A stretch of 64,000 bases of DNA from Blastocystis sp. Blastoise (Eukaryota > Sar > Bigyra > Opalinata > Blastocystidae), in assembly GCA_039096225.1 (NCBI GenBank), contig JBBPEB010000014.1, positions 1,009,501 through 1,073,500 on the forward strand, in the 5' to 3' direction. The position numbers and the translations under genes are program-made. The stretch's first letter is position 1, and each line of letters opens with the position of its first letter. The notes under the pieces are model-generated. The model searched no databases and was not told where the DNA came from. It saw only the letters and a list, made by a program, of their open reading frames with translations. Positions 16,502-61,915 of this stretch are shown piece after piece.

Positions 16502-19500
16502 ATGAAATCCATATTCATCTTCATGTTTATGCTTCTTGCATTCGCTGAGATTAGTAAATAAATAATTTTCATAAGTTCAAACTAATTATTTTTATAAATC
16601 TATAGCTTGTAACAGCGATTCTCAAAGTAGTGTAACTCTCAGAGTCTCTGGACCTCTTAGCAAAGAGTACAGTGATGAAACAAATGATGTTTTTACTATT
16701 GCCTTAAGCTATTATAATGGTGATAATATTATAGTTAATGATTATAACTTTTGCTTTCTTCCTGCTGAGGGTGGTGCTAATACTGGTAATTATTGTCAAA
16801 AGACTTACTCATTTAGTTATAAGCAAATTGAAGAAAACACTGCATCCGTCGATCTTTGCTTCCCATTTAAAGGAGATGGAAATAATGCTAATGTTGTTAA
16901 TTTTGATCCAGCAGCATCTACAGTGTTTGGTGCTTGCTTAGAACTTTTTAACAGTGTTGAAAACAGCATTTATTATACAAAGAATTGCTATTATTCCTCA
17001 GAGAATCTTCAAACTTTCAATGAGTATTTCGTTTCAGAGAGTCAAACAGAAGCTGCTTTTACGGGATCTCTGAAAACTACTGTTTATGTTGATAGTGTCA
17101 ATCCTTTTGTTCTTCATCCTACAATTGCTTTATCTGTTGCAAATGATGCAGTTACTGTAAATCAATTAACTGCTACTTATATTCAATCTATTGAATTTAA
17201 TTCCGATCCTCAAATTTCTGGATTATCTTTCGATGAAAAGCGTTATGTCTTTTCTGGTACTGTCTCTTTTACTGGAGATTCTGCTTCCGTTAGTGTTCTT
17301 AATAATCAAAATACAAACACACAATATTCATTTACTCTTACAAAATTTTCTTGTAGTGGTGAAAACGCTGGTAAATATCCTGTTATCTTAACACTTTCTC
17401 ATAAGACTGCTAGGTATAATTTAATATTCAGAATTGAGCAAGGTGAAACTGTTATTGGATCTACATATTTAGATGCAGATCCTACTGATACATGGCCTAA
17501 TGAATTAAAGAGAAAAAGTGAAGATGGAGATGAAATTTATGAACTTGGTATTTGTTTAGAACCTGGTGATTATTCATTAACTATGTCTATGCTTTATATA
17601 AGTGGTCCATTTGTAAATCAACTTGCTAAAGGTCAATCTTGGCCTGAAGATTCTTTTTTAACTATTTCTGTATTATCTGGAACTGCTGCTAACGGTCTTA
17701 CTCATGATTTTAATGGATATACAGTAGGTGATTTTGCTTTTACTGCTTCTCTTGAAGATGATCATTTGACTCCTGTAGCTGATACTACTACTACTTTTTC
17801 TATTGGACCTAAAGAATGTAAGACAGGTGAGAGAGTCGTTATTATCGATAAACTTGGTTCAACAGAAGCTGGTTTTGAAGGTTTTTCTATTTATTCTAAA
17901 GATATAAGTTCTGGAGAAACTACTCTTCTTAATACATATGTTGGCTTTGCTAGTCTATATTCCTCTCGTTTCTCTCCTGTATTTAGAACTTTTGTATGTT
18001 TAGCTGAAAATCAATATTATACTATTCGTGCTTTTTCAAAGGGTGATTATGAAGTGACCAATAATGTTGTTACTCTAGTCAACGAGTGTCCTGCTTGGTC
18101 TACTGATTTATCAGTTGAAAGTTTAACTTATTATGATATCTATACTCGTACAGAAGTTACTCAACGTCATACTTCTTTAATTTGTGTATCTGTCTTATCA
18201 GAGAATTCTTATTATGGTGGAGAATTTATAAGTGATCCTGAATATAATAGTTTCTGTTCTAATGGTAATGCTGTTCTTAACGATGCAACTATTGATCGTA
18301 ATGATATAATAGATGCATATACTTGTGAACATTCTTTTGATTTTTATTTATATAAATATGCTACCTTTATTTCTAAGAGAAATGATGATACTAATTATGT
18401 AAGTAAAACCATAGAAATGAAAGAAAGTGATGTTTACAATTTTAAATTTGTTTGTAATGAACAAGATGATAGTAGTAATTGTAAATATATTGAATCTTAT
18501 TCTATAATTTGTTCTTTATCTAATGCAGATGATGCCACTCCTGTTGATTGTGGTACGTATGGTATTGTCTTAGATGGTAATACTATTACTAGTTTAGCTA
18601 TAAATGGTGATGATACAGCTGTAACTGTTTATTTAACTATTATACCTAATGTTAAATCTGAATATTATTATTATAAAGGTGTATCTGATAAATTTACTAT
18701 TACTATTAATAAATTACCTCCTCCCGCCAATGCTTTTACTGTAAAACAAGATAATGTTTTAGCTATACCTAAAGCTACTTATCAAAGTGATATTACTACA
18801 TTTATATGTAAATTTGATAATGATGTTCCTCTTACTGCTAATGAAGTTACTATTGAAGATGATAGTGCTACGAATCATTATAATATACAATTTTCTGTTT
18901 CTTCTTATTCTTCTTTTAGTTGTACATTAGGAGATCATTCCTTTGATGTATATGTTCGACCTGTATGTAAAGATCTTGATGGATATATGCTTCAAGAACA
19001 TGGAGATGTTGAAAATCCTGTTTGTAATGAAAATGGATATACTACTCAAACTTTATGTGCTTATAATCCTATGATTAAACGTGCAGAACTTGTTTATAAA
19101 ACTATTCCTTGTCGTAGTAGTGTTAGTACATTATCACTTGATTATAATGAAAATATGGGTCCTGAAGATGAAAGTATTCCTGCTGGTCATACTGAAGTTA
19201 CTTCTAATTTCTGTTTAGGTTCTACTATTACTACAGATTATCCATCTATCAAAAGCAATCCTTCTTGGTATTTTAAAGCTATTGAAACTTCATTTAAAGA
19301 AGCTTTTACTGTTCCTTTAAGAGATGTTTATGTAATTCGTCGTTATGTTAGTGATGAATCGGATTGTATAACTGTTTTATTTGATGCTCCTTATGGTGAA
19401 AAAGATGATATTATATCTCTTTTAGATGAAAATGGTTTTATGGATAGTGTTAATGGTTATTTACAAACTCTTGATAATGTACATTTTACTGATACTTTAG

Positions 19501-20318
19501 GATTTGAACATGTTGATTCTAATGGTGGTCAACATTCTGCTATGTGTGCTACAGAAATTGTTACTGAAGTTAAATTCTTATATTATCCTGATAATGTAAC
19601 TGCTACTCCTGTTGTTGCTACTCTTAATAATATTCAATTTAATTCAACTTATGCATTCTATTATTCATATACTCCTATTCCTGATTATCTTAATGCTACT
19701 TATAATGGTCAATTAACTAGATTATGTAAACCTACTTATTTTGATAGTGTTTTTACAGATGTATCTACTAATTCTTTAGTTCAAGTTATAGATTTAACTT
19801 GGTGGGATTTACCTATGGTTGTATATATTACCGGATTTGATGTTCGTGCTGCTAATTTCGATGTCCGTTATGCTCTTCAACGTGCGTTAACTCGTTTGGC
19901 TTTTAATGATCCTACTGGTGTTTTTGAACATATGACACGTGATGTTAATGTATATAATGTACATGGTGTAGATGTTAATCATATAGAAGATGACGATGAA
20001 ACAGCTATTGTTAATCCTGATCCTCGTGTTTATAAAGATACTGCTTTCTCTGTTGTTATTCGTGTTAAAGATAATACTGAAATTGCTGATTGGTATGACC
20101 ATATGAATGCTCATATATGTTTAAAGAGTAGTCTAGTTCGTGGGCAATTACGTGAAGGTATTTCTGATTTAATGCTTGGATTTATGCAAAAACAATTAGG
20201 TAAAGATAAAGATGGTAGTCCTATATTTAAGTTAGAAAATAGAGAAATGCGTCTTTATTTACCTGATTATTATGATCCTAAAGGACTTCCTACTAAAGCT
20301 CCTACCGCTTCTCTTTAA
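16502..20318 (+). CDS. Large secreted protein A, unrecognised family (paralogue of B at 43347-47193)
   Basis: Two exons: 16502-16553 encodes the signal peptide (MKSIFIFMFMLLAFAEI) and 16606-20318 the rest, joined in phase 1 across a 52-bp intron; 1,254 residues. No membrane helix after the signal, no asparagine tracts, and many cysteines in pairs, so probably an exported soluble or wall protein. The N-terminal two thirds looks like a series of beta-sandwich repeats, each with a Cys near a conserved Ser-Gly or Asp turn. The C-terminal third has two alpha/beta units: the first around WYFKAIETSFKEAFTVPLRD, the second around LTWWDLPMVVYITGFDVRAA and MTRDVNVYNVHGVDV, which resemble ferredoxin-like (SEA-type) folds. 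The C-terminus is LYLPDYYDPKGLPTKAPTAS. Codons are richer in G and C than in neighbouring genes, suggesting high expression. I know no named family. Confidence 0.82.
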
Positions 20319-43346: not shown

Positions 43347-46300
43347 TTATTCTTCAGCAGGTAATTTTTCTTCATCATAATAATCAGGTAAATAGATACG
43401 AACTGTCTTGTCATCAATCTTAAAAATATATTCACCATTAGTTTTACCAATAAGTTTTTGCATGGATTCTAATATAGTATTTGACCAGTCACCAAATAAA
43501 TGACCACGAATTCGACTAGCTTTATCACATACATTACTATTCATATAATTATAAAAACCACGAATTTCAGTAGTATCTTTAACTCTTAAGACAACATTAA
43601 ATGAGGTACCACCATAAACAAGAGGAGATTCGGACTGAATAGAAATACCTTCAATATTATATACATTAACATCACGAGTATAATGAGTATAAGCACCATC
43701 AGGTTGATTATAGACTTCTCTCATTAATGTACGTTGAAGAGCATAACGGACATCAAAATTAGCAGCACGAGGATCTAAACCATCAATATATACAACCATA
43801 GGTAAATCCCACCAAGTCATATTAATAATTTGAACAACACTATTTGTACTAGGTTTATCAAAATAGCTACCAAAATATTCAGGTTTACATAATCTAGTAA
43901 TCTTACCATTATAATTTTGTTCAATACTATCAGGAACAGGAGTATAAGCATAATAGAAAACTTCAGTTTCTTCAAAAGGAACATTTTCTAATACTACACT
44001 AACAGGATTCGAAGTAATATTATTAGGATAATAAATAATAGGTACATTAGCAGTGTCAGCTTTACATTTAGCAGAATTTTCTTTAGTAATAACATCTTGG
44101 AAGGAGAAATAACGAGTAGTAAATATTTCAGGATCAACAGAAGCTAAAATATTCTTTAAATTATCAGCAAATTCAGCATCAATTAATACTTCACTAACAG
44201 CATTAGATGTACCAAATTGACTATCAATAACAAAATCATATTCATTTCTATAATTACTAGAATCAGAAGTAAACATACGTCTAGTCATATAAATATCACG
44301 AATAGGAATACTAAAAGCTTCTTTAAGAGCAGATAAGATTTCTTCAAAGAACCATCCAGAAGCATTTAAGAAAGAAATATCATCTCCAGAAGCAAGAGCT
44401 TCATCAAGTTCTAAAATAGCATGTACTTGAGTATAAGCATGACCAGAAGGAACAGTAGCTAAATCTACACCTTGATCTAAAGAAGCTAATATACAAGGAA
44501 TATTCTTTGTATAAATTTCAGCACGTAATGTCATTTCATTATATACACAATATTGTTGAACATAATAACCATCAGTATTACAAGTAGATTCAATCATATT
44601 ATTCAAAGGAATTTCTACTGAGCTCATAGTATTACTATCACCTCCAGAAAGAGATGAACATATAGGACGACTATATATACGAACAACTTTTTGGCCAATA
44701 GTACATACGAAAGGAGTATAAGAAGAAATACTAAAAGCAAATTGATATAAAGCATTTCCAGAAACAAGAGAAATATCAATAGTGTTACTACCATGTGGAA
44801 TAACAACATTATTTAAGGTACAAACAACTTCAGTATCTACATTAACAATATTATCTTTAGAAGGAATATTTAAAGTACTTCCTTGAGTTGTAACATAAGC
44901 ATCAGCCATATTAACGTTCTTAGTAACAGTAAGCATATAAGTAGAACTTACACCAGAATAATATTCAGCAGTAGTAGCACTAGGAACAGAGGTAACAGTA
45001 GCATAGAAAGTGAATGCAGCATCATTAGGATTAGCAGCTCTTCCAGTAACACCAGCAGTATAGGAAGTAGCAGTAGAATCTAAAATAAATCCATAATCAG
45101 CACAATTAACAACAGTCTTAGTAACACCAGAATCAGTAGAAGTATAACAAGAAAGAGAATATGTATTAATAACAGTACAAGCAGCAGGAGTAGAATCTGA
45201 CATATCAGTACAAAGGAATTTGAAATCATAATTTTGTCCTTCCATAACAGTAACTCCAGCAGCAGGAATATCATTACCAGTACTATCAGAAACAGTAAAA
45301 GCAGCAGGTTGAACAATAAAAATATCAAAATTATAAGTACATAAAGTAGAACTAAGAAGATCATGACGATCTATACTATCATTATTAATAACAGCATATT
45401 TGGAACCTTCATAACTTGCATAAACTCTTTCAGTAGGAAGATCACCACCATAATAAGAAGAATCATCAACAATACGTATATACATCATAGAAGGATGAAC
45501 TTGAGTGACTACAGAGTCAGTATAGACATCAGTATAAGTAATAGCTTCAACAGAATTACTAGTAGACCAAGCAGTACAAGAAGCATATTGATAAACACCA
45601 GCAGAAGTAGTAGCAACAGGATAAGAACGTAAACGAATTTCATAAGTTTGTTTATTTTGTAAGCATAAGAAAACTCTAAAGAAAGGATCAAAACGTTTAG
45701 AAGCAAAACTAGCTAAACCAAAATAAGAATTCTTTAATGTTACTTCATTATTAATAACATCTTTAGTATAAATTTCAAAACCTTCAGAACCACCAGAAAC
45801 AGTAGCTAATTTATCGAAAATAACAACACGTTCTTCAGATTGACAAATCATAGGACCAATATCAACATTAATAGTAGCAGATTGAGAAATAGAATTAACA
45901 TTACCAGATTCAGTGTAAGTAGCAGTAAAACCGAAATCACCAACAATATATCCAGTAAGACTCTTACTAGTATCACTAGTAACAGTTTGAGATAAGACAG
46001 AAATAGTAAGATAAGAATCAGTATTCCATGAAATAGCAGTTAATACATTACCATTAGTATCAACAGTAGACATTTCTAATTGATATTGAGAAGAAGAAGC
46101 TTCTAAGCAAACAGCATATTCAGCTACAACATTAGAAACACCAGGACCACCACGTAATAAATGAGAAGTCCAATCATCAGTAGATAATTTAGTTGAACCA
46201 ACAACATTACCATTAACAGATAAAGTGAAAACTTCATAATTAGAAGAAGTAGAATAGACTCTAGTAAAAATAACAGGATATTGAGCAGGTACAGCACTTT

Positions 46301-47193
46301 CATCACACTTAAATCTAGAAATAGTAAATCTAGATGAAATAGTACTTGAATCAGCACCATTCTTAATAGTTACATCAACAGATTCACTACCTTGTAAATC
46401 GATAGTACCTCCAAAAAGTAATTGATTGGTATTGAAAGAAAGACCAATATCTTGATCATTTTCAACATGATAATAAACACTCTTAAGATAAGGAGAAGTC
46501 ATATCATCATTATTAATGGGTACACTAAAAGCATCAGAATCTTGTAATGTAACACTAATTTCAGGACGAATAACAGAACTTGAATAATAATCAATGTAAA
46601 CTTTTGAATCACCAACTCTATTTGTATTAATAGTAGCAAGAGGTTGATTATCCATAACAGCACGTTCAGAGAAGAAATAAGTACTACCACTTTGAGAATA
46701 ACAACGAACAGTATAATAAACTTGATTAACAGTATCATATAATTGGAAACAAGCACCACGAACATAAGTATCAATTCTTATATATAAAGCAACAACTGTG
46801 TAATAATCACTTAATGTTTTTTGCATACATAATCTTGCACTAGCAGTACCAGCATTAATTTGTTCATGAGTATAAGTAAATTCAGTTGGGCAACTAGTAG
46901 CTATACCACTCGCACCATTCGTATCGGGTAATTTACAAAAATTACTTGAACTTAATCTACCATTATCTCCATAATATTGTAAAGTAACTTTCAAATATTG
47001 ACTATCACTGTTATAATAGCCAACAAGTGGTCCAGTGACACTCAGGGTAATATCGTTAAAAAATGTAGAATCGCAATAAGCTATACACATTAAAATTTAA
47101 AAATAATAATTGATACAATAAATAGAAATATATATATATACGCTCTTGAGAGACAACTAAGATAGCAAAGAATAAAAAGAAATAGGCTTTCAT
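43347..47193 (-). CDS. Large secreted protein B, unrecognised family (paralogue of A at 16502-20318)
   Basis: Exon 1 (47193-47142) encodes MKAYFFLFFAILVVSQE and joins exon 2 (47080-43347) in phase 1 over a 61-bp intron: same exon length (52 nt) and same phase as gene A. 1,261 residues, no later membrane helix. Paired motifs with A include ITLSVTGPL against VTLRVSGPL, QSEERVVIFDKL against KTGERVVIIDKL, IPIRDIYMTRR against VPLRDVYVIRR, NGKITRLCKPEYF against NGQLTRLCKPTYF, TWWDLPMVVYI in both, and RAANFDVRYALQR in both. The C-terminal end is IYLPDYYDEEKLPAEE. Cysteine spacing is conserved through the repeats. Like A it has richer codon use and no Asn tracts. It probably belongs to a gene family for an exported, abundant protein; role unknown. 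Confidence 0.84.
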
Positions 47194-53407: not shown

Positions 53408-54417
53408 TCAAAGTGAACAATATGAAGATTTAAGTAGTAACGGAGGAATACGTAAACACCACTATATATATATAATTATTATGATTATTATTATTATTAT
53501 GATTATGATTATGATTATGATTATGATTATGATTATGATTATGATTATGATTATTATGATTATGATTATGATTATTATGATTATTATGATTATTATGATT
53601 ATTATGATTATTATGATTATTATTTTTATATACAGAAGGAGGGGTTGCAAAGCTAGCACATAGTTCACTATAGAATACTTCATGTCGTGACATCAATTTC
53701 CCTTCTAAGAAAGTAGCAGGATATCTAATCTTATCTTGAGAGAGGAGAGAGGGAAGCACCACGGATGCTTGACGTATCTCTTCCTTTAATAACTATATAT
53801 ATTGATTAATAATGTTTTATTATATATATATATATATATATATCTTTTAACAATAAATATATATATAACAAAAATAATATGTCTACATATATAATATGCT
53901 AAACACAATAAAATATACTTTTTCTCCTTGTCCTGAATGTACACATGTATATATATCATTAAATAAAACATTAGAACCATCAGTACATAACTCCAAATTC
54001 TCAAAAATATATCGATTATAACTATATCAGTATATATATTTAGTATATTCTTAAATATAATAAAAAACAACTATTTTTATTACAAAAGAAAAAAATATTT
54101 CAATTACAAAACAAATAATAACAATATATATAATAATATTCAATAAAAGAATGAATAGAGAATATACCTAATGACACATCGTGTGACGCTCCATCGTATC
54201 TTTGGATCTATATATAAATGATTAACACAGGACAAGACCATATTTAGTTGGCAAGTTAATAATCCTGAAGAACAAATAAGATCATTATTTATAGATAAGG
54301 ATACACCTCCTACTGGATGTATTGTCATATTATAATATGTAGATCTATATATAAATGTATATATATATTATATTATATTTATTTAATAGAAGAAGAAGAA
54401 TACAGTAGATACATAAA

Positions 54418-54471
<54 letters not shown>

Positions 54472-56894
54472 TATATATAAACAACACATATAAACAATAC
54501 AAATATTAAAAACAATTAATATATATATATACTTTTCTTTCTTCATTATCCATGTTAATTGGTTTACAATGAAATTATTTGAGGATTCACAATTATTATG
54601 TGTATATATATCGATTTGAAGTGTTTTTCGTCGAGAAGATGTTAAGAATTGTTTCATATAATCATGATTACAATCTTTACATGTTGATTCAATTCCTGCA
54701 ATTCTCTGAGGCCCGCCACAAATAGTTGGCGGTAAACCATGTATATAATTACATATTCCATATAAAATCGACTTCTCTGAAGCAATATTAGTATATGTAT
54801 TAATAGATATTAAAGGTGGAGGTATAATAGTTGTACTATATATATAATAAGTTTGTTCATATAATTTAGTTATATATGCATCATGATCAAATGAATAAAC
54901 ACAAAATTTTAATGATTTCTGAGTTTCTTGTATATATATAGAATTCAAACAAGCTACTATAATGGAATGTATATGTTGCGTATTGTCTTTCTTTAATAAT
55001 TTCATAACACATATAGAATATTGAATTTTTTGTGAATCTCCTTGTATTTCTTTCAATCCACACATATAAGCATATACTTTATGACATCGGTTATTCTTCT
55101 CAATTTCACAAAGTCGACTACTTGTCTTTGTATTAATATCTAATCCACCAAAAGGAAGGAATTGAACTTCTAATGAATTATATATAATATTCATAACAGT
55201 AGAAGACATATAACTTAAAAACCATAAAGAAGACACAATTTCAATATCAAAATAAATATAAATAGTTGAGATTGAATGAGGAACAAGGAATTCATAATAA
55301 GATGATAAATGTAATTGTCTTATATAACTATCATATCTCCAGGATTCCATTCTATTTTCTAAATTATCATAATCATATATCTTATGAATATTTTCACTAT
55401 ATACAGAATAAAGATGACTTGTTATCTTTAATTTAATATTTTGTGATGGACTTTCAATTGTTTTATTTTCTGGATCCATAAACATAGTTAATGAACTTAA
55501 TCGATATATATTTTCATTCATGAACATTTTATTATTCATATAAATACTTGTATGACGATTACCTTTATTTATTTTATTATTCATATTTGTAAATATATCT
55601 GAAGAATAAATACGATTATTATTATTATTTAAATATAACGTATAAGTAACTTCAGTATTTTCAGTTTTATTCGGTAAATATATAGGTCCTCGCAAACTAT
55701 TATGTTTATAGACAGAAGATGCATAATGTATTTTTCTTTGTTTATGAGAACTACTTAATGTAGATTCTCTATCTAAAAGCGGACTTATATAATCATTATC
55801 TTCAATATTTGTATTATATCTCTTTCGTTTAAACATACCTAACACACTTGAAATAGATTTCTTATGATTTTTATTCGTATTTTCAGGATTAATAGTAATA
55901 GATTTAGTCGTCGTAGGAATAGAAGATAAAGTAGATTTTACGTGAATAAAAGAAAGTTTACTTTTATCATTAGAATCTAAATTAATATCAATTTCTTTTC
56001 CTTTATCAGTAGTACTTTTCTTTGTTCTAGAATGCTTCTTCTTTTTATGTAAATTAGAATGCTTACGTTGACGATCTTCTTTATATATATCCTCTTTATC
56101 CTCATTAATCATAGATTCATCATTATATACTTCTGTCTTTTTATTTTCTTCTTCTGCAAATTCAGGGCTTTCTTCTTCTTCAACATCAACATGTTTATAT
56201 GATATACTTTTCTTTATATTCATATTTTTAATTGTATCATCATTCTCTTGTTGATTCGAATTTTCTTTTCGAATTTCATTAAATAATTCTTCTTTTAAAG
56301 AATTTACAGTATCACTATAAAGTATTTCTTTATTCTTCTTATTCGATTGATTTACTAATATACATCTAGGATCTTGTTGATTCTCTATATCTAAACAATC
56401 AATCTTTTTAGATTTATTTGTTCTTCTCTTCTTCTTCTTCTTCTTCTTCTTTTCTGTAGTGTCTATAACAACAGATTCATCATTTGTAGTATTATTTTCT
56501 TCATCTATTATTCTAGATGTATTCTTATCATTAATACTTTCTTCATTATTATAATGCAGAGTATCAGAAGAAGATTGAATAGAAGTGTCATCTACTGTAT
56601 TTATACTTGGAGAATTATTAGTATTTGTATTTATAGTAGTTGATCTATATAAATTACTTTGTGAATCACTAAGTGATGATCCATTAGGAATATAGGAATT
56701 GCCACTAGAAGAAGAAGTTGTTGATGACGAAGATGATGATAATTTAAATGGATTAATATGATATGATTGACTATTATCATTTATATTATCAGTAGCAGGT
56801 ATTTCATTAAAATTATTATGACTTATATTATTATTTATACTACTTTGTTCATTATTCATATTATTCTCATTTGTATAAACTGTTGATCCTATAA

Positions 56895-56976
<82 letters not shown>

Positions 56977-59900
56977 TGAGATATTATTATTATTATTATT
57001 TGAGATATTATTATTAGTAGTAGTAGTTGTTGTTGTTGTTGTAGCAGGAATACTAGTATCACTTTCTTGAGTAGAAGTAGAAGTAGATAAAGAAGAAATA
57101 GTAGAAGGAATACGAGATTTAGGTTTATATCTTTTTTTTGAAGATCTCTTCTTTCTTGATACATTCTGTTTTAGTGCTATACATTTAGGATGACGACGAT
57201 ATTGAAATAATGAACAATTTATACCCCCTGTATTCATTTGTGTATCTTCATCATCATCATTAGTATCAGTGTCTAATGGTGTTTCAACTGGACTAGATGA
57301 CGATTGTATATTCTGATTTGATAATAATGTTGATGAAGAAGAAAGTTCTGTTCCTATTGTTTCTCCTTTAATATTGGTATCAATAATTGCTGAATTCCTA
57401 TTATTTATATTATTTACATTATTTATATTATTTATATTATTTATATTATTTATATTATTTATATTATGATCAATATTTAGAGTATTATCATTGTTTTCTG
57501 ATTGATGTTGAAGAAGAGAAGTTTGAGATTGTATATGACTTTCTGTAGGAGAAGAAGCAGTCATAGACTGACGAGATACAGGAATAGCCATATTCCTAAT
57601 AAATCGATTCTGTCTTATATTTGCATGTTTATATTTACTTGATTTTGAAGATTCTTCATTATTGTCATCATTATCATTATTATTATTGGTATTATTATCA
57701 TCATTATCATCATTGGCAGAAGTATTTTCATTATTAGTCATAAAAGAGGGTAATTGGTCCTTTATTGCTGGATCTTCTAGATGTTCATCATTATTATTAT
57801 TCTCTATAGAATTTAATGGATCTGCAAATGTAGATAATGAATCACCATCATCATCTGTACTCATTGGATCTATTCTTGTCTTAGTATTTGTTATAGGAGT
57901 ATTTAAAGGAGTATTTATAGGAGTATTTAAAGGAGTATTTAAAGGAGTATTTAAAGGAGTATTTAAAGGAGTATTTAAAGGATTATTCATAGGATTATTC
58001 ATAGGATTATTCATAGGATTATTCATAGGATTATTCATAGGATTATTCATAGTATTCATAGTATTCATAGTATTCATATTATTCATAGGATTAGGGTTAA
58101 CTGCAGTATTTATAGATGGGTTTGTAAATGATGATTGACGGAATACAATAGGATTCTTTCGACTACTAAATATAACACGTCTATTTGTTGAACCCAAAGA
58201 CTTTAAGGTTTTTATACTAGTAAATGGAGATGAAGGATCTGTATTTGGATCCATAACAGGATTCGCATTTAAGCCATTCACTAATTTACTTGCTTCACTA
58301 CGATCTACATGCATAAAGTTAATATTATTATTCATATTATTATTCATATTATTATTCATATTATTCATAACATTCATATTATTATTCATATTATTATTCA
58401 TATTATTCATATTATTATTCATATTATTATTCATATTATTCATATTATTATTCATATTATTATTCATATTACTAAATGAAGAAGAAAGACCGTTATTATT
58501 TTGTATTCCATTTTCATTAATTATATTATTATCTATATTTCCTTGTGATATTCCTGTAGAAGTATTTATACTACTTATTCCATCTTTATGAAGTAATTCT
58601 TCATCACGAAGAGAATCTTCAGAAACAATATCATGTCCTATATTATCTTCTTCATCTCCTTCTTCTTCTCCTTCTGAATTATTATCTTCATTTCTCTCAT
58701 TATCAATATCTTCATCTTTAGTTGGTGATCGTATTTTTAATGATACTTTTGACTTATCAGAAGTAGTGATACTTATTCTATTCTGTTTCGACACAGATTC
58801 TCTATTATTTTTATTCATTTTTGTCTTTTTAAGTTTTTGATTTTTTAATGAAGATTTTCTTTTCCTAGGTAGAACTTCTTCCTCTTCTTCCTCTTCTTCT
58901 TCTTGTTCCTCTTCTTCATCAATTCGATGTTTATTAACATTCTTTTTAGAACGAGATAAAGGTGTTCTTTTAGTTTTCTTCTTTATAATCTCTTCTTCTT
59001 CTTCTTCTTCTAAAGATTTATTATTCTTATTTTTTTCTTCATCTTCTTCATTCTTTTCTTCTTCTTTTTCTTCTGTACTATTCTTTATACTCTTCTTTTT
59101 CTTCTTCTTTGGTTTCTCTATAGAATCATTTGTTATATCCATATTTTCAATTTTTTGTTTCTCTTCAAGAGCTTCTTCTTTCTCTTCATCCTCACTCTCA
59201 GCTTTCTTTAAACCTTCAGAATTATTATTATTATCATTATTATTATTATTTAATAGATTTAATCGTAAATCTTGACCTGTAGCTACTTGTGTATTATCTG
59301 GACTATTACTCATATCATCATTATCATCTTCATCTTCATTCTTATTGTCACCTATAGGCAAACTATGAATATCTTCAACTTGTTGTAAATGTAAAATCTC
59401 TTCTTTTTCTTGTTCTTTTCCTTCTGAGAAATGATTATCTTCCATATTAACATCTTTTGCTCCTAATCTTAATAATAAAGTATTTCCTTCTTTAGATGGA
59501 ATTCTATTCTTTTCTACTTTTGAACTTTCTTTAGAATCTAAAGTATCTTCTTTCTTTGTAGTTTTTTTAGAGACTCTTTTTGATTTTCTTTTCTTTCTCT
59601 TTCCTTCTTCTTCTTCTTCATCATCATCATCATCATCACTATTAATTCGTTCAATAACTAAAGAATCTGAAATATATTTATTTTCTGTATTCAAGGGATC
59701 ATCTTCTCCCTTGGATTCCATATTCATAGAATTATCTTTATTATTATTATCATCATCATTATTATCATTATTATTATTGTCATCATTAGTGTCTCCTTCT
59801 CCTTCTTCAGAATTCTCCTTAGAAAAACTATTATTTAAGATATTCTCTTCTTGAACACTTTTCTCTGGCAATACTTTTGTATTTTCATTATTATTATTAT

Positions 59901-61915
59901 TAGAAGGTATGGTATTCATAGATTCATTCTTCTTCTTATGATTATCTGATACTTTAATAACAGGAGGATTCAAAAGAGGACGTTCGGCTAATTGAGATTT
60001 TGTCATTGGTATAAATGAATATAATCTATTAATAATATCAACACATAAGCCACCACAAGGTTGACGATTGATACGAACAGCAGGTATTTCAGAAGGAATA
60101 GTATTATATGTATTATTAGTATAGTACATCTGATCTATTAACAACTATATATATATGTAGTATTATATAGATGATAAAGTAAGGTTTAAAAACGTTTGTA
60201 GTAGCAAATAATATATATATAATAAAATCAAGAATAGTGTTGTAAATCAATATATATATATAAAGAAAAATACTTATAAATCTATAATATAATCAATAAT
60301 ATATAATATATATATAATATATATATATATAATATATACTTGTTTTCCTCTTGAAGTAATACATTCTAAAATGTCCTTTTCATATGAAGGAGAACACTTA
60401 GCTAACGATGCTTTGGTATATTCATCACTATATATATATATATATATGTTATCAATAATTATAGGTAAAGAATACACTAAAATGATTTATTTCATTATAA
60501 TTATATAGGATAATATTTATAAATTACATATATACATATAGAAATAGTATATTAATCAAAGGAAGAAATATAATAGATATATATATATATATATATATAC
60601 AATTGAATGCATTTAAGCATAGGAATATAGATTCGATAGTCCTCAATAACGTCAATAGTACATGCTTGTAGTTTATTTGCAATAATTTCATTAATACCAT
60701 TCTTAGCTATAATCTTCTTCTTTGGAGATAAATACATATTAAACCCTGTTATTACTTTCATATTCACTCTCTCTGCAAATCTATATATGTATATATAGAT
60801 ATATAATCAAAGAAAATTAATATGGTATGTATAATTACTAATAATAATATTACATATATTTTACTAATAAGAATATATATATATATATACTGAGGAAAAT
60901 TAATAAGTTCCGTTTCAATGATGTCAAAAAGTGAAATAGTATCTTCTAAATAAGAAGTTAAATATATTTCAACTAGAATCTAGATATATATATATTGTAA
61001 TACGTTATATATTAATAATAATATACTGTATCACTTAAAGATTGCGTTCTTCGTGGAGTTCTATCACTCAAAGAATTACAACACTATAATAATATAAATC
61101 AATTTTAACATATATATATATATACTTCTATAGATAGATCATTATAATCTTTGCAAAGTATGTTCAATAGGTCCATAAATGGATAATAAAAAAGCTTATT
61201 AGAATAAGTCACAGATATATTAGTATCTTGATTCAAAACTGATAATGACGATAAATGAAGTGACTAGAAAAAAAAATTAAAAAAAAAATTGAACAATATG
61301 AAAAAAAAAGAGATAAAAAAGTAAACAGAAAAAAAAAGTAAAACTTTGAAAAATAAAATACAGAGAGAGCTTTGTTTGTGCAATTATGTATATCATTGAT
61401 TTTTCTGTTTGTACCCAACAGTTCTACCAATTGAGATTGACTAAAAGAGAATAATGAATTATTAATGGGCCATTTAAAAGTAAAATAGTAGCTATCATAT
61501 AAAAATAATAGATAGATACGGTTCTTTGCATGTAAGCAGTAATTTTGATATACTTATTGCTTCAGAAAAAGGTATGTTTGACATTAGACACATTTGAGAT
61601 ACGGCTACAAAGCACTGGATTTTGTCTCCAATACATTCAAATGAGTCTGTAGCACCTGATGACTTATTCAAAAATGCATATTCATACGAGACAGCAAGAT
61701 TGTGTTTTTCACTATATAATAAAGTAATCAATAATATTAAATACGTTAGTTCATGAGTTTTCAAATAAAAGTCATTGATTTGATCGAGTGTTTCTGATTG
61801 AATTGACGGTATGTGGACAATTAAGTTTCGAAAAGCCTATAGATTTAGTCTATTCTTTAAGTATATATACTAGTATTTCTTCAACAAAAAGAAATAGCAG
61901 GTAATACCAAATCAT
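53408..61915 (-). CDS. Giant secreted protein with about four GILT-like domains and a central low-complexity stretch
   Basis: Built from about 13 exons, about 2,500 residues. Start 61915 gives a signal peptide (MIWYYLLFLFVEEI). Four regions resemble GILT (IFI30), a lysosomal thiol reductase with signature C-x2-G-x3-C-x2-N-x4-C. Domain 4 shows it exactly, CSSGLLTCQLNMVLSC (~54280); domain 1 has CIGDKIQCFVAVSQMC (~61640) and domain 3 has CEIEKNNRCHKVYAYMC (~55115). Domain 2 (61010-60020) keeps the later Cys pattern (LKC..LAKC..ILEC..GKQLL). LPFGG before the domain 3 signature and HPVGG before domain 4 match GILT's PYG strand. Reductase CXXC is missing in all; domain 4 has NCESS. One 5.6-kb exon (60144-54533) carries the end of domain 2, 1,400 residues of Asn, Ser, Lys/Glu and Met-Asn repeats, and most of domains 3-4. 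Final intron 53634-53465 is uncertain: without it the protein ends at 53430 after an Asn/His run. Confidence 0.72.
53481..53625. repeat. ATTATG/ATTATTATG repeat at the 3' end of the multi-GILT gene
   Basis: About 145 bp of ATTATG and ATTATTATG units. In the sense direction it would code Asn-His repeats, but GTATATAAAA before and ATATATATAG after suggest it is intronic. Confidence 0.75.
56898..57013. repeat. AAT array with two variant cores, coding Asn
   Basis: AAT triplets on the minus strand, interrupted twice by TTGAGAT on plus (sense ATCTCAAAT), giving NISNNNNNISNN in the multi-GILT protein. The core differs by one base from the ATCTCAGAT form elsewhere. Confidence 0.88.
57900..58480. repeat. 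Coding minisatellites: NTPL, NPMN and MNN repeats
   Basis: In the long exon of the multi-GILT gene, 15-bp units at 57900-57980 (GTATTTAAAGGA on plus) encode NTPL, 57981-58080 encode NPMN/NTM, and 58325-58470 encode MNNN. All stay in frame. Confidence 0.85.

Follow-up and report, generated by a model that had tools for sequence, protein, structure and literature searches.

A window of 64,000 nucleotides from Blastocystis sp. Blastoise, the whole stretch of DNA analysed here, contains a minus-strand gene that encodes four GILT-fold domains (D1 to D4) and belongs to a lineage of seven loci in the same genome, all derived from a single multi-domain ancestor. The GILT enzyme is known to have one CXXC domain, normally a single unit of about 200 residues, whereas the predicted window-gene protein is composed of four units. 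The active-site columns of D1, D2, D3 and D4 read QSET, LEDT, IVSS and CESS in place of CXXC; the product is therefore described as a GILT-fold protein, and the label of reductase is unproven. The preferred reading, to which a probability of roughly 0.45 is given, is that the protein may serve as a scaffold for thiol-dependent capture or retention rather than as a reductase.

Gene model and domain identity

The genome set comprises 33.3 Mb in 34 contigs and is AT-rich; the window corresponds to C8:1009501-1073500. The gene runs from an ATG at position 61915 to a TGA ending at 53408, all positions being those of the window and all features lying on the minus strand. The exon joins are in phase from start to stop, with GTAT-type donors and TAG acceptors. 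This exon model and the junctions of the paralogues were chosen in our own assemblies from DNA alone. Since an in-frame intron of 33 nt within D1 (61712-61744) is spliced out, at a position shared with introns of the paralogues, the model comprises 14 exons and 2354 aa. A stop-to-stop frame of 1921 codons (60144-54379) contains the long exon (54533-60144), which runs from the last part of D2 through the insert, D3 and the linker into the first part of D4. At the level of DNA the two halves thus form a single gene. The original prediction, made from this DNA by eye, of four tandem GILT-like units in one gene, in pairs on either side of a low-complexity stretch, was borne out.

The protein starts with a weak signal-like segment, which is followed by D1, D2, a mostly disordered insert, D3 and D4. 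Exon 1 (61871-61915) encodes the N-terminus MIWYYLLFLFVEEIL, whose likeness to a signal peptide is weak and judged by hydropathy only: the peak over nine residues is 2.08, whereas the other six scored N-termini peak at 3.19-3.66. The proposed signal peptide is thus kept as a signal-like N-terminus of low strength. D1 (61027-61836) is a divergent GILT-like domain made of exons 2-6 (61836-61745, 61711-61520, 61440-61362, 61263-61126 and 61083-61027). D2 (59998-60979) is encoded by the exons 60979-60891, 60780-60601 and 60427-60340 together with the first part of the long exon; it carries a CX3C motif, CGGLC, at about 60057-60043. The insert between D2 and D3 (55300-59997) is rich in N, S, T, D, E and K and mostly of low complexity; it is long and disordered as had been proposed, but measures 1566 aa and not 1,400. 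Two small cysteine pairs that are alike in spacing lie inside it (57222-57170 and 56403-56350), and a similar pair is present in the insert of one paralogue, L021, within its long exon. D3 and the linker occupy 54646-55299, and the linker contains CKDC (54670-54681), the sole CXXC of the protein. D4 (53408-54645) consists of the end of the long exon and the exons 54344-54168, 54021-53919, 53792-53634 and 53461-53408; its CESS lies at 54580-54591, with the first cysteine present and serine at the second position. The last intron (53462-53633) is mostly made of imperfect ATAATC repeats.

When the protein was searched with the Pfam GILT profile (PF03227, cut-off 22.4 bits), D2 and D4 matched with 28.9 and 50.4 bits, and D1 and D3 had no match, so that the check proposed for all four domains succeeded for two of them. 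A profile was also built from the same genome, using 33 of 36 cut-out GILT domains and leaving out those of the window gene itself. With this profile D2, D3 and D4 scored 80.8, 77.3 and 132.3 bits, and none of 2000 shuffles of each domain reached the real score (null maxima of 15.2, 14.9 and 12.0 bits). D1 is weak, with 13.4 bits; 0/5000 shuffles scored as high, the null maximum being 12.5. Against profiles of paralogue domains it was marginal, as 41/5000 shuffles scored as high with all paralogue domains and 29/5000 with the D1s alone, and against the canonical profile alone it was no better than shuffles (1673/5000 as high). In hhalign, the probability for window D1 alone was 64.0% with the combined profile, 2.0% with the other D1s and 0.4% with canonical GILT. 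Alignments of six rows each, compared with canonical GILT, gave 97.6% for the D1s (where the window-gene row still included the unspliced 33 nt), 99.3% for the D2s, 96.2% for the D3s and 99.2% for the D4s. Support for D1 comes mainly from position, cysteines, introns and the tree.

The profiles were also compared with known structures. With a limit of E up to 1, the family profile matched one PDB entry only, the GILT structure 6nwx (2.5e-15). The D4 profile matched this structure at 1.5e-13 over positions 6-177 of 177, and the D4 cysteine was aligned with the first cysteine of CGAC in 6nwx; for D3 the value was 4.8e-5 for the whole chain. The structural cysteines are consistent with this identification, 8/8 being present in both D3 and D4, 6/8 in D1 and 4/8 in D2. 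D4 has the signature C-x2-G-x3-C-x2-N-x4-C in exact form, from about 54274, and it is recognisable in D1 (C-x6-C-x7-C) and D3 (C-x7-C-x7-C), as originally described, with a cysteine spacing that is unchanged or differs by one. In D2 the G, the N and the last C are present and the first two cysteines are gone.

Paralogues and the active-site census

A search of the genome with the D3 exon found seven matching loci, and the matched stretch was free of stops in 7/7. Besides the window gene, these are C31 (L021), C29 (L022), C8:399k (L019), C25 (L012), C8:1226k (L020) and C34 (L011). The order D1-D2-insert-D3-D4 is found in the window gene and five others, which makes this a family and not a single odd gene. 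L011, whose model includes one tentative splice join, has only D1, D3 and D4 and is missing D2 and the long insert. The insert varies in length: across five of the six insert-bearing loci (all except L020) it measures 1566 aa in the window gene, 712 in L021, 362 in L022, 336 in L012 and 130 in L019. All six paralogue concatenations matched Pfam GILT, that of L012 with 4 stretches, and all 19 Pfam GILT matches in the genome belong to these loci or to canonical genes.

In a tree of 36 domains, groups were recovered for the canonical domains (99/93), D3 (100/97), D4 (100/99), D1 (81/92) and, weakly, D2 (52/89). These groups require one change each, four in total, which is the minimum possible. 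That the domains cluster by position indicates that the four-domain layout is older than the divergence of the copies. Window D1 falls with the other D1s on a very long branch (4.06). L011 lies outside the other six among the D3s (97/91) and, with weak support, beside L012 among the D4s (91/47), two placements that bear on whether the second D4 cysteine was lost a single time. The introns were mapped in 14 D1, D2 and D4 domains from five genes, which excludes L011, L021 and D4 of L020. An intron at alignment columns 40-45 was found in 14/14 of these domains, one at columns 117-124 in 13/14, and one at columns 167-169 in 11/14. The exception at columns 117-124 is window D1, where the intron is placed at column 140 in a part of uncertain alignment; this domain has introns close to two of the three recurrent sites.

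The census of active sites was made on the 36 cut-out domains, which take in all 19 Pfam GILT matches. CXXC was found in eight domains (four of the C24 gene, C22_1, C22_3, C19_1 and D4 of L011), the first cysteine only in eight (six family D4s, C22_2 and C16_1), neither cysteine in 20 and the second only in none. The 20 domains with neither are the family D1-D3 domains, 20/20. In D4 the first cysteine is present in 7/7 loci and the second is absent in 6/7, the sites being CESS, CTAS, CPQT, CRNS, CIYN and CEIS in six loci and CKWC in L011. D4 thus has a CxxS-type monothiol pattern, in which the first cysteine is kept and the second is S, T or another residue, and D1-D3 do not. The original claim that the reductase site had been lost is correct in that CXXC is missing at all four sites of the window gene, but it is too sweeping for D4, which keeps the first cysteine. 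The two sites outside the family with the first cysteine only, CPDT and CPGT, lie apart on the tree.

Two other cysteine motifs were followed through the family. The CXXC of the D3-D4 linker is present in 5/7 loci (the window gene, L019 (L010), L011, L012 and L021), and in L020 and L022 both of its cysteines are missing together. The idea that it represents a relocated active site was rejected on account of these two loci and is retained only as part of a rival explanation. By eye on the alignment, 11/27 family domains, none of them a D4, and 0/9 canonical domains have a CX3C motif close to their C-terminal end.

A possible capture scaffold and its rivals

The domains, the cysteine pattern and the paralogues are observed, and from them we infer how the protein might work. 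It would enter the secretory route, where D1-D3, which have neither active-site cysteine, could serve as binding modules for a putative partner. The nucleophilic first cysteine of D4 might then form a mixed disulfide with this partner. Because D4 has no resolving cysteine, such a disulfide would be possible without reduction being completed as in CXXC enzymes. The disordered insert would be a flexible spacer that separates D1-D2 from D3-D4. Support for this scheme comes from the first D4 cysteine, which is found in 7/7 loci although the D4s of the other loci are only 22-36% identical to window D4. It has been reported that CXXS thioredoxins can bind substrates covalently in a complex of greater stability (PMC10775533), and that mosGILT, a CxxS GILT, shows no detectable reductase activity (PMC6060088).

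Several points weigh against the capture reading. According to the same account of mosGILT, replacing its sole active-site cysteine with serine left the cell-traversal effect unchanged, so an active-site cysteine of this kind can be dispensable; a CxxS mutant of mouse GILT retained lower reducing activity, which makes the statement that the protein is not a reductase uncertain (PMC6060088). Among the seven scored N-termini, that of the window gene has the weakest signal-like segment. The D4 cysteine could be part of a structural disulfide instead, and the count of 7/7 is inflated by common descent. An AlphaFold2 model of D3 with five distant GILT proteins was unusable, with a predicted local distance difference test score (pLDDT) of 31.4 and a predicted template modelling score (pTM) of 0.22. 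The activity, partner, localisation and transcript of the protein are predictions from sequence.

A tentative alternative that deserves serious attention is a non-covalent scaffold like mosGILT, in which each of the four domains would bind ligands through its surface and the D4 cysteine would be either a relic or a structural residue. The loss of both active-site cysteines in 20/20 D1-D3 domains fits this explanation, as does mosGILT, which works without detectable reductase activity and whose cysteine was dispensable in the traversal assay described (PMC6060088). However, retention of the first D4 cysteine in 7/7 loci while the second was lost in 6/7 is unexpected for a free relic in copies that have diverged so far. 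An improbable explanation is that of a weak or split oxidoreductase, in which the D4 cysteine would team up with an external thiol or with the linker CXXC. The linker motif is present in 5/7 loci and its two cysteines are gained or lost jointly, and the lower reducing activity of the mouse CxxS mutant (PMC6060088) points in the same direction; however, L020 and L022 carry the D4 cysteine without a linker CXXC, and L011 has the linker CXXC next to an intact CKWC. It is very improbable that the halves are transcribed as two genes or that the gene is drifting into decay. The high divergence of D1 (branch length 4.06) could be taken this way, and no annotated product of the window gene was among the matches in either protein search; against it stand the single 1921-codon frame from the end of D2 to the start of D4, the in-phase exon joins and the identical domain order in five other genes.

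The capture scaffold can be extended to a bolder and rather unlikely scheme, that of a covalent thiol trap. In this quadruple-GILT lineage of a gut protist, a lysosomal reductase fold would have been converted so that D1-D3 dock cysteine-rich partners (e.g., mucus or host surface proteins) and the D4 cysteine captures a partner disulfide. The variable inserts would set the reach, and the linker CXXC (5/7 loci) might act as a release switch.

Distribution, side observations and known systems

Protein searches at E up to 1e-3 found no relatives, either with the six-paralogue alignment (2846 candidates) or with window D3-D4 (1039 candidates); neither listed the products of the window gene or its paralogues, so absence elsewhere is not implied. 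A literature search, which included Blastocystis together with GILT and left subscription papers outside its scope, found no report of a four-domain, insert-bearing GILT architecture. A published paper lists a GILT orthogroup among the phagotrophy markers of marine stramenopiles. What is already known is tandem CXXC GILT lacking an insert, in the same genome and in relatives, and CxxS GILT, in insects. The literature search gave no protein that combines four domains with active-site loss by position, a single remaining cysteine and a disordered insert of variable length. The claim of a new architecture would therefore hold for this combination but not for a solitary gene, as it is shared by a family, nor for tandem GILT domains as such. 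The analysis suggests that an enzyme fold may have been turned into a binding or thiol-capturing scaffold. The mosGILT precedent indicates that a CxxS form can serve other work; if the D4 cysteine captures partners, this would be a new use of the GILT fold, in an organism with many human and animal carriers.

Stop codons made by polyadenylation are known in Blastocystis, and in ST1, ST4 and ST7 the motif is reported to occur about once per 3 kb (PMC5608401). A wrong 3' end of the gene model through such a stop was considered and rejected, as TGTTTGTT is absent from the window (0 sites) and the reading frame of the model is closed by a TGA. The motif is not enriched in the 33.3 Mb of the genome, where it occurs about once per 9 kb (3674 sites, against 3853 for the reversed control), and this strain may not create stop codons via polyadenylation. 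Elsewhere in the window, two long frames of about 1250 aa (16575-20318, plus strand, and 43347-47096, minus strand) resemble copies of each other by eye and possibly encode large surface or secreted proteins. At L019:130-1749 (plus strand) a frame of 540 aa has the look of a hAT-type transposase by eye and no Pfam match at E up to 0.01. Among the other GILT genes, L009 (C22:1154500-1163500) holds three consecutive ones, whose active sites are CNAC, CPDT and CPDC and which adjoin exons resembling thioredoxin or PDI by eye, and in P0016-P0018 a papain-type protease is joined to a C-terminal GILT domain.

Several known systems can be compared with the window-gene protein. mosGILT (AGAP004551, Anopheles) shares CxxS in place of CXXC in its GILT domain and was non-reducing in an assay; it differs in that it is described, in passages that mention neither tandem domains nor an insert, as a homologue of GILT whose hydrophobic C-terminus is extended (PMC6060088). 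L011 has D1, D3, the linker CXXC and D4 of the family but is missing D2 and the long insert, and its D4 site is CKWC. The C24 gene (P0001 = WA158_006200) and the relatives P0002-P0010 likewise have multiple GILT domains per chain (four in P0001 and P0002), whereas C24 has an intact CXXC in all four, is free of an insert, consists of a single exon and open reading frame, and belongs to a separate clade (99/93). ERp44-like CxxS thioredoxin proteins act in retention through one cysteine and mixed disulfides; they are a different family, likened to window D4 in concept and not by sequence. The closest standard is GILT/IFI30 itself (PF03227; 6nwx), with which the window-gene protein shares the fold by profile, the order of the structural cysteines and a full-length match of D4. 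GILT normally has one CXXC domain, whereas the window-gene protein has four domains, a long insert and no active-site CXXC.

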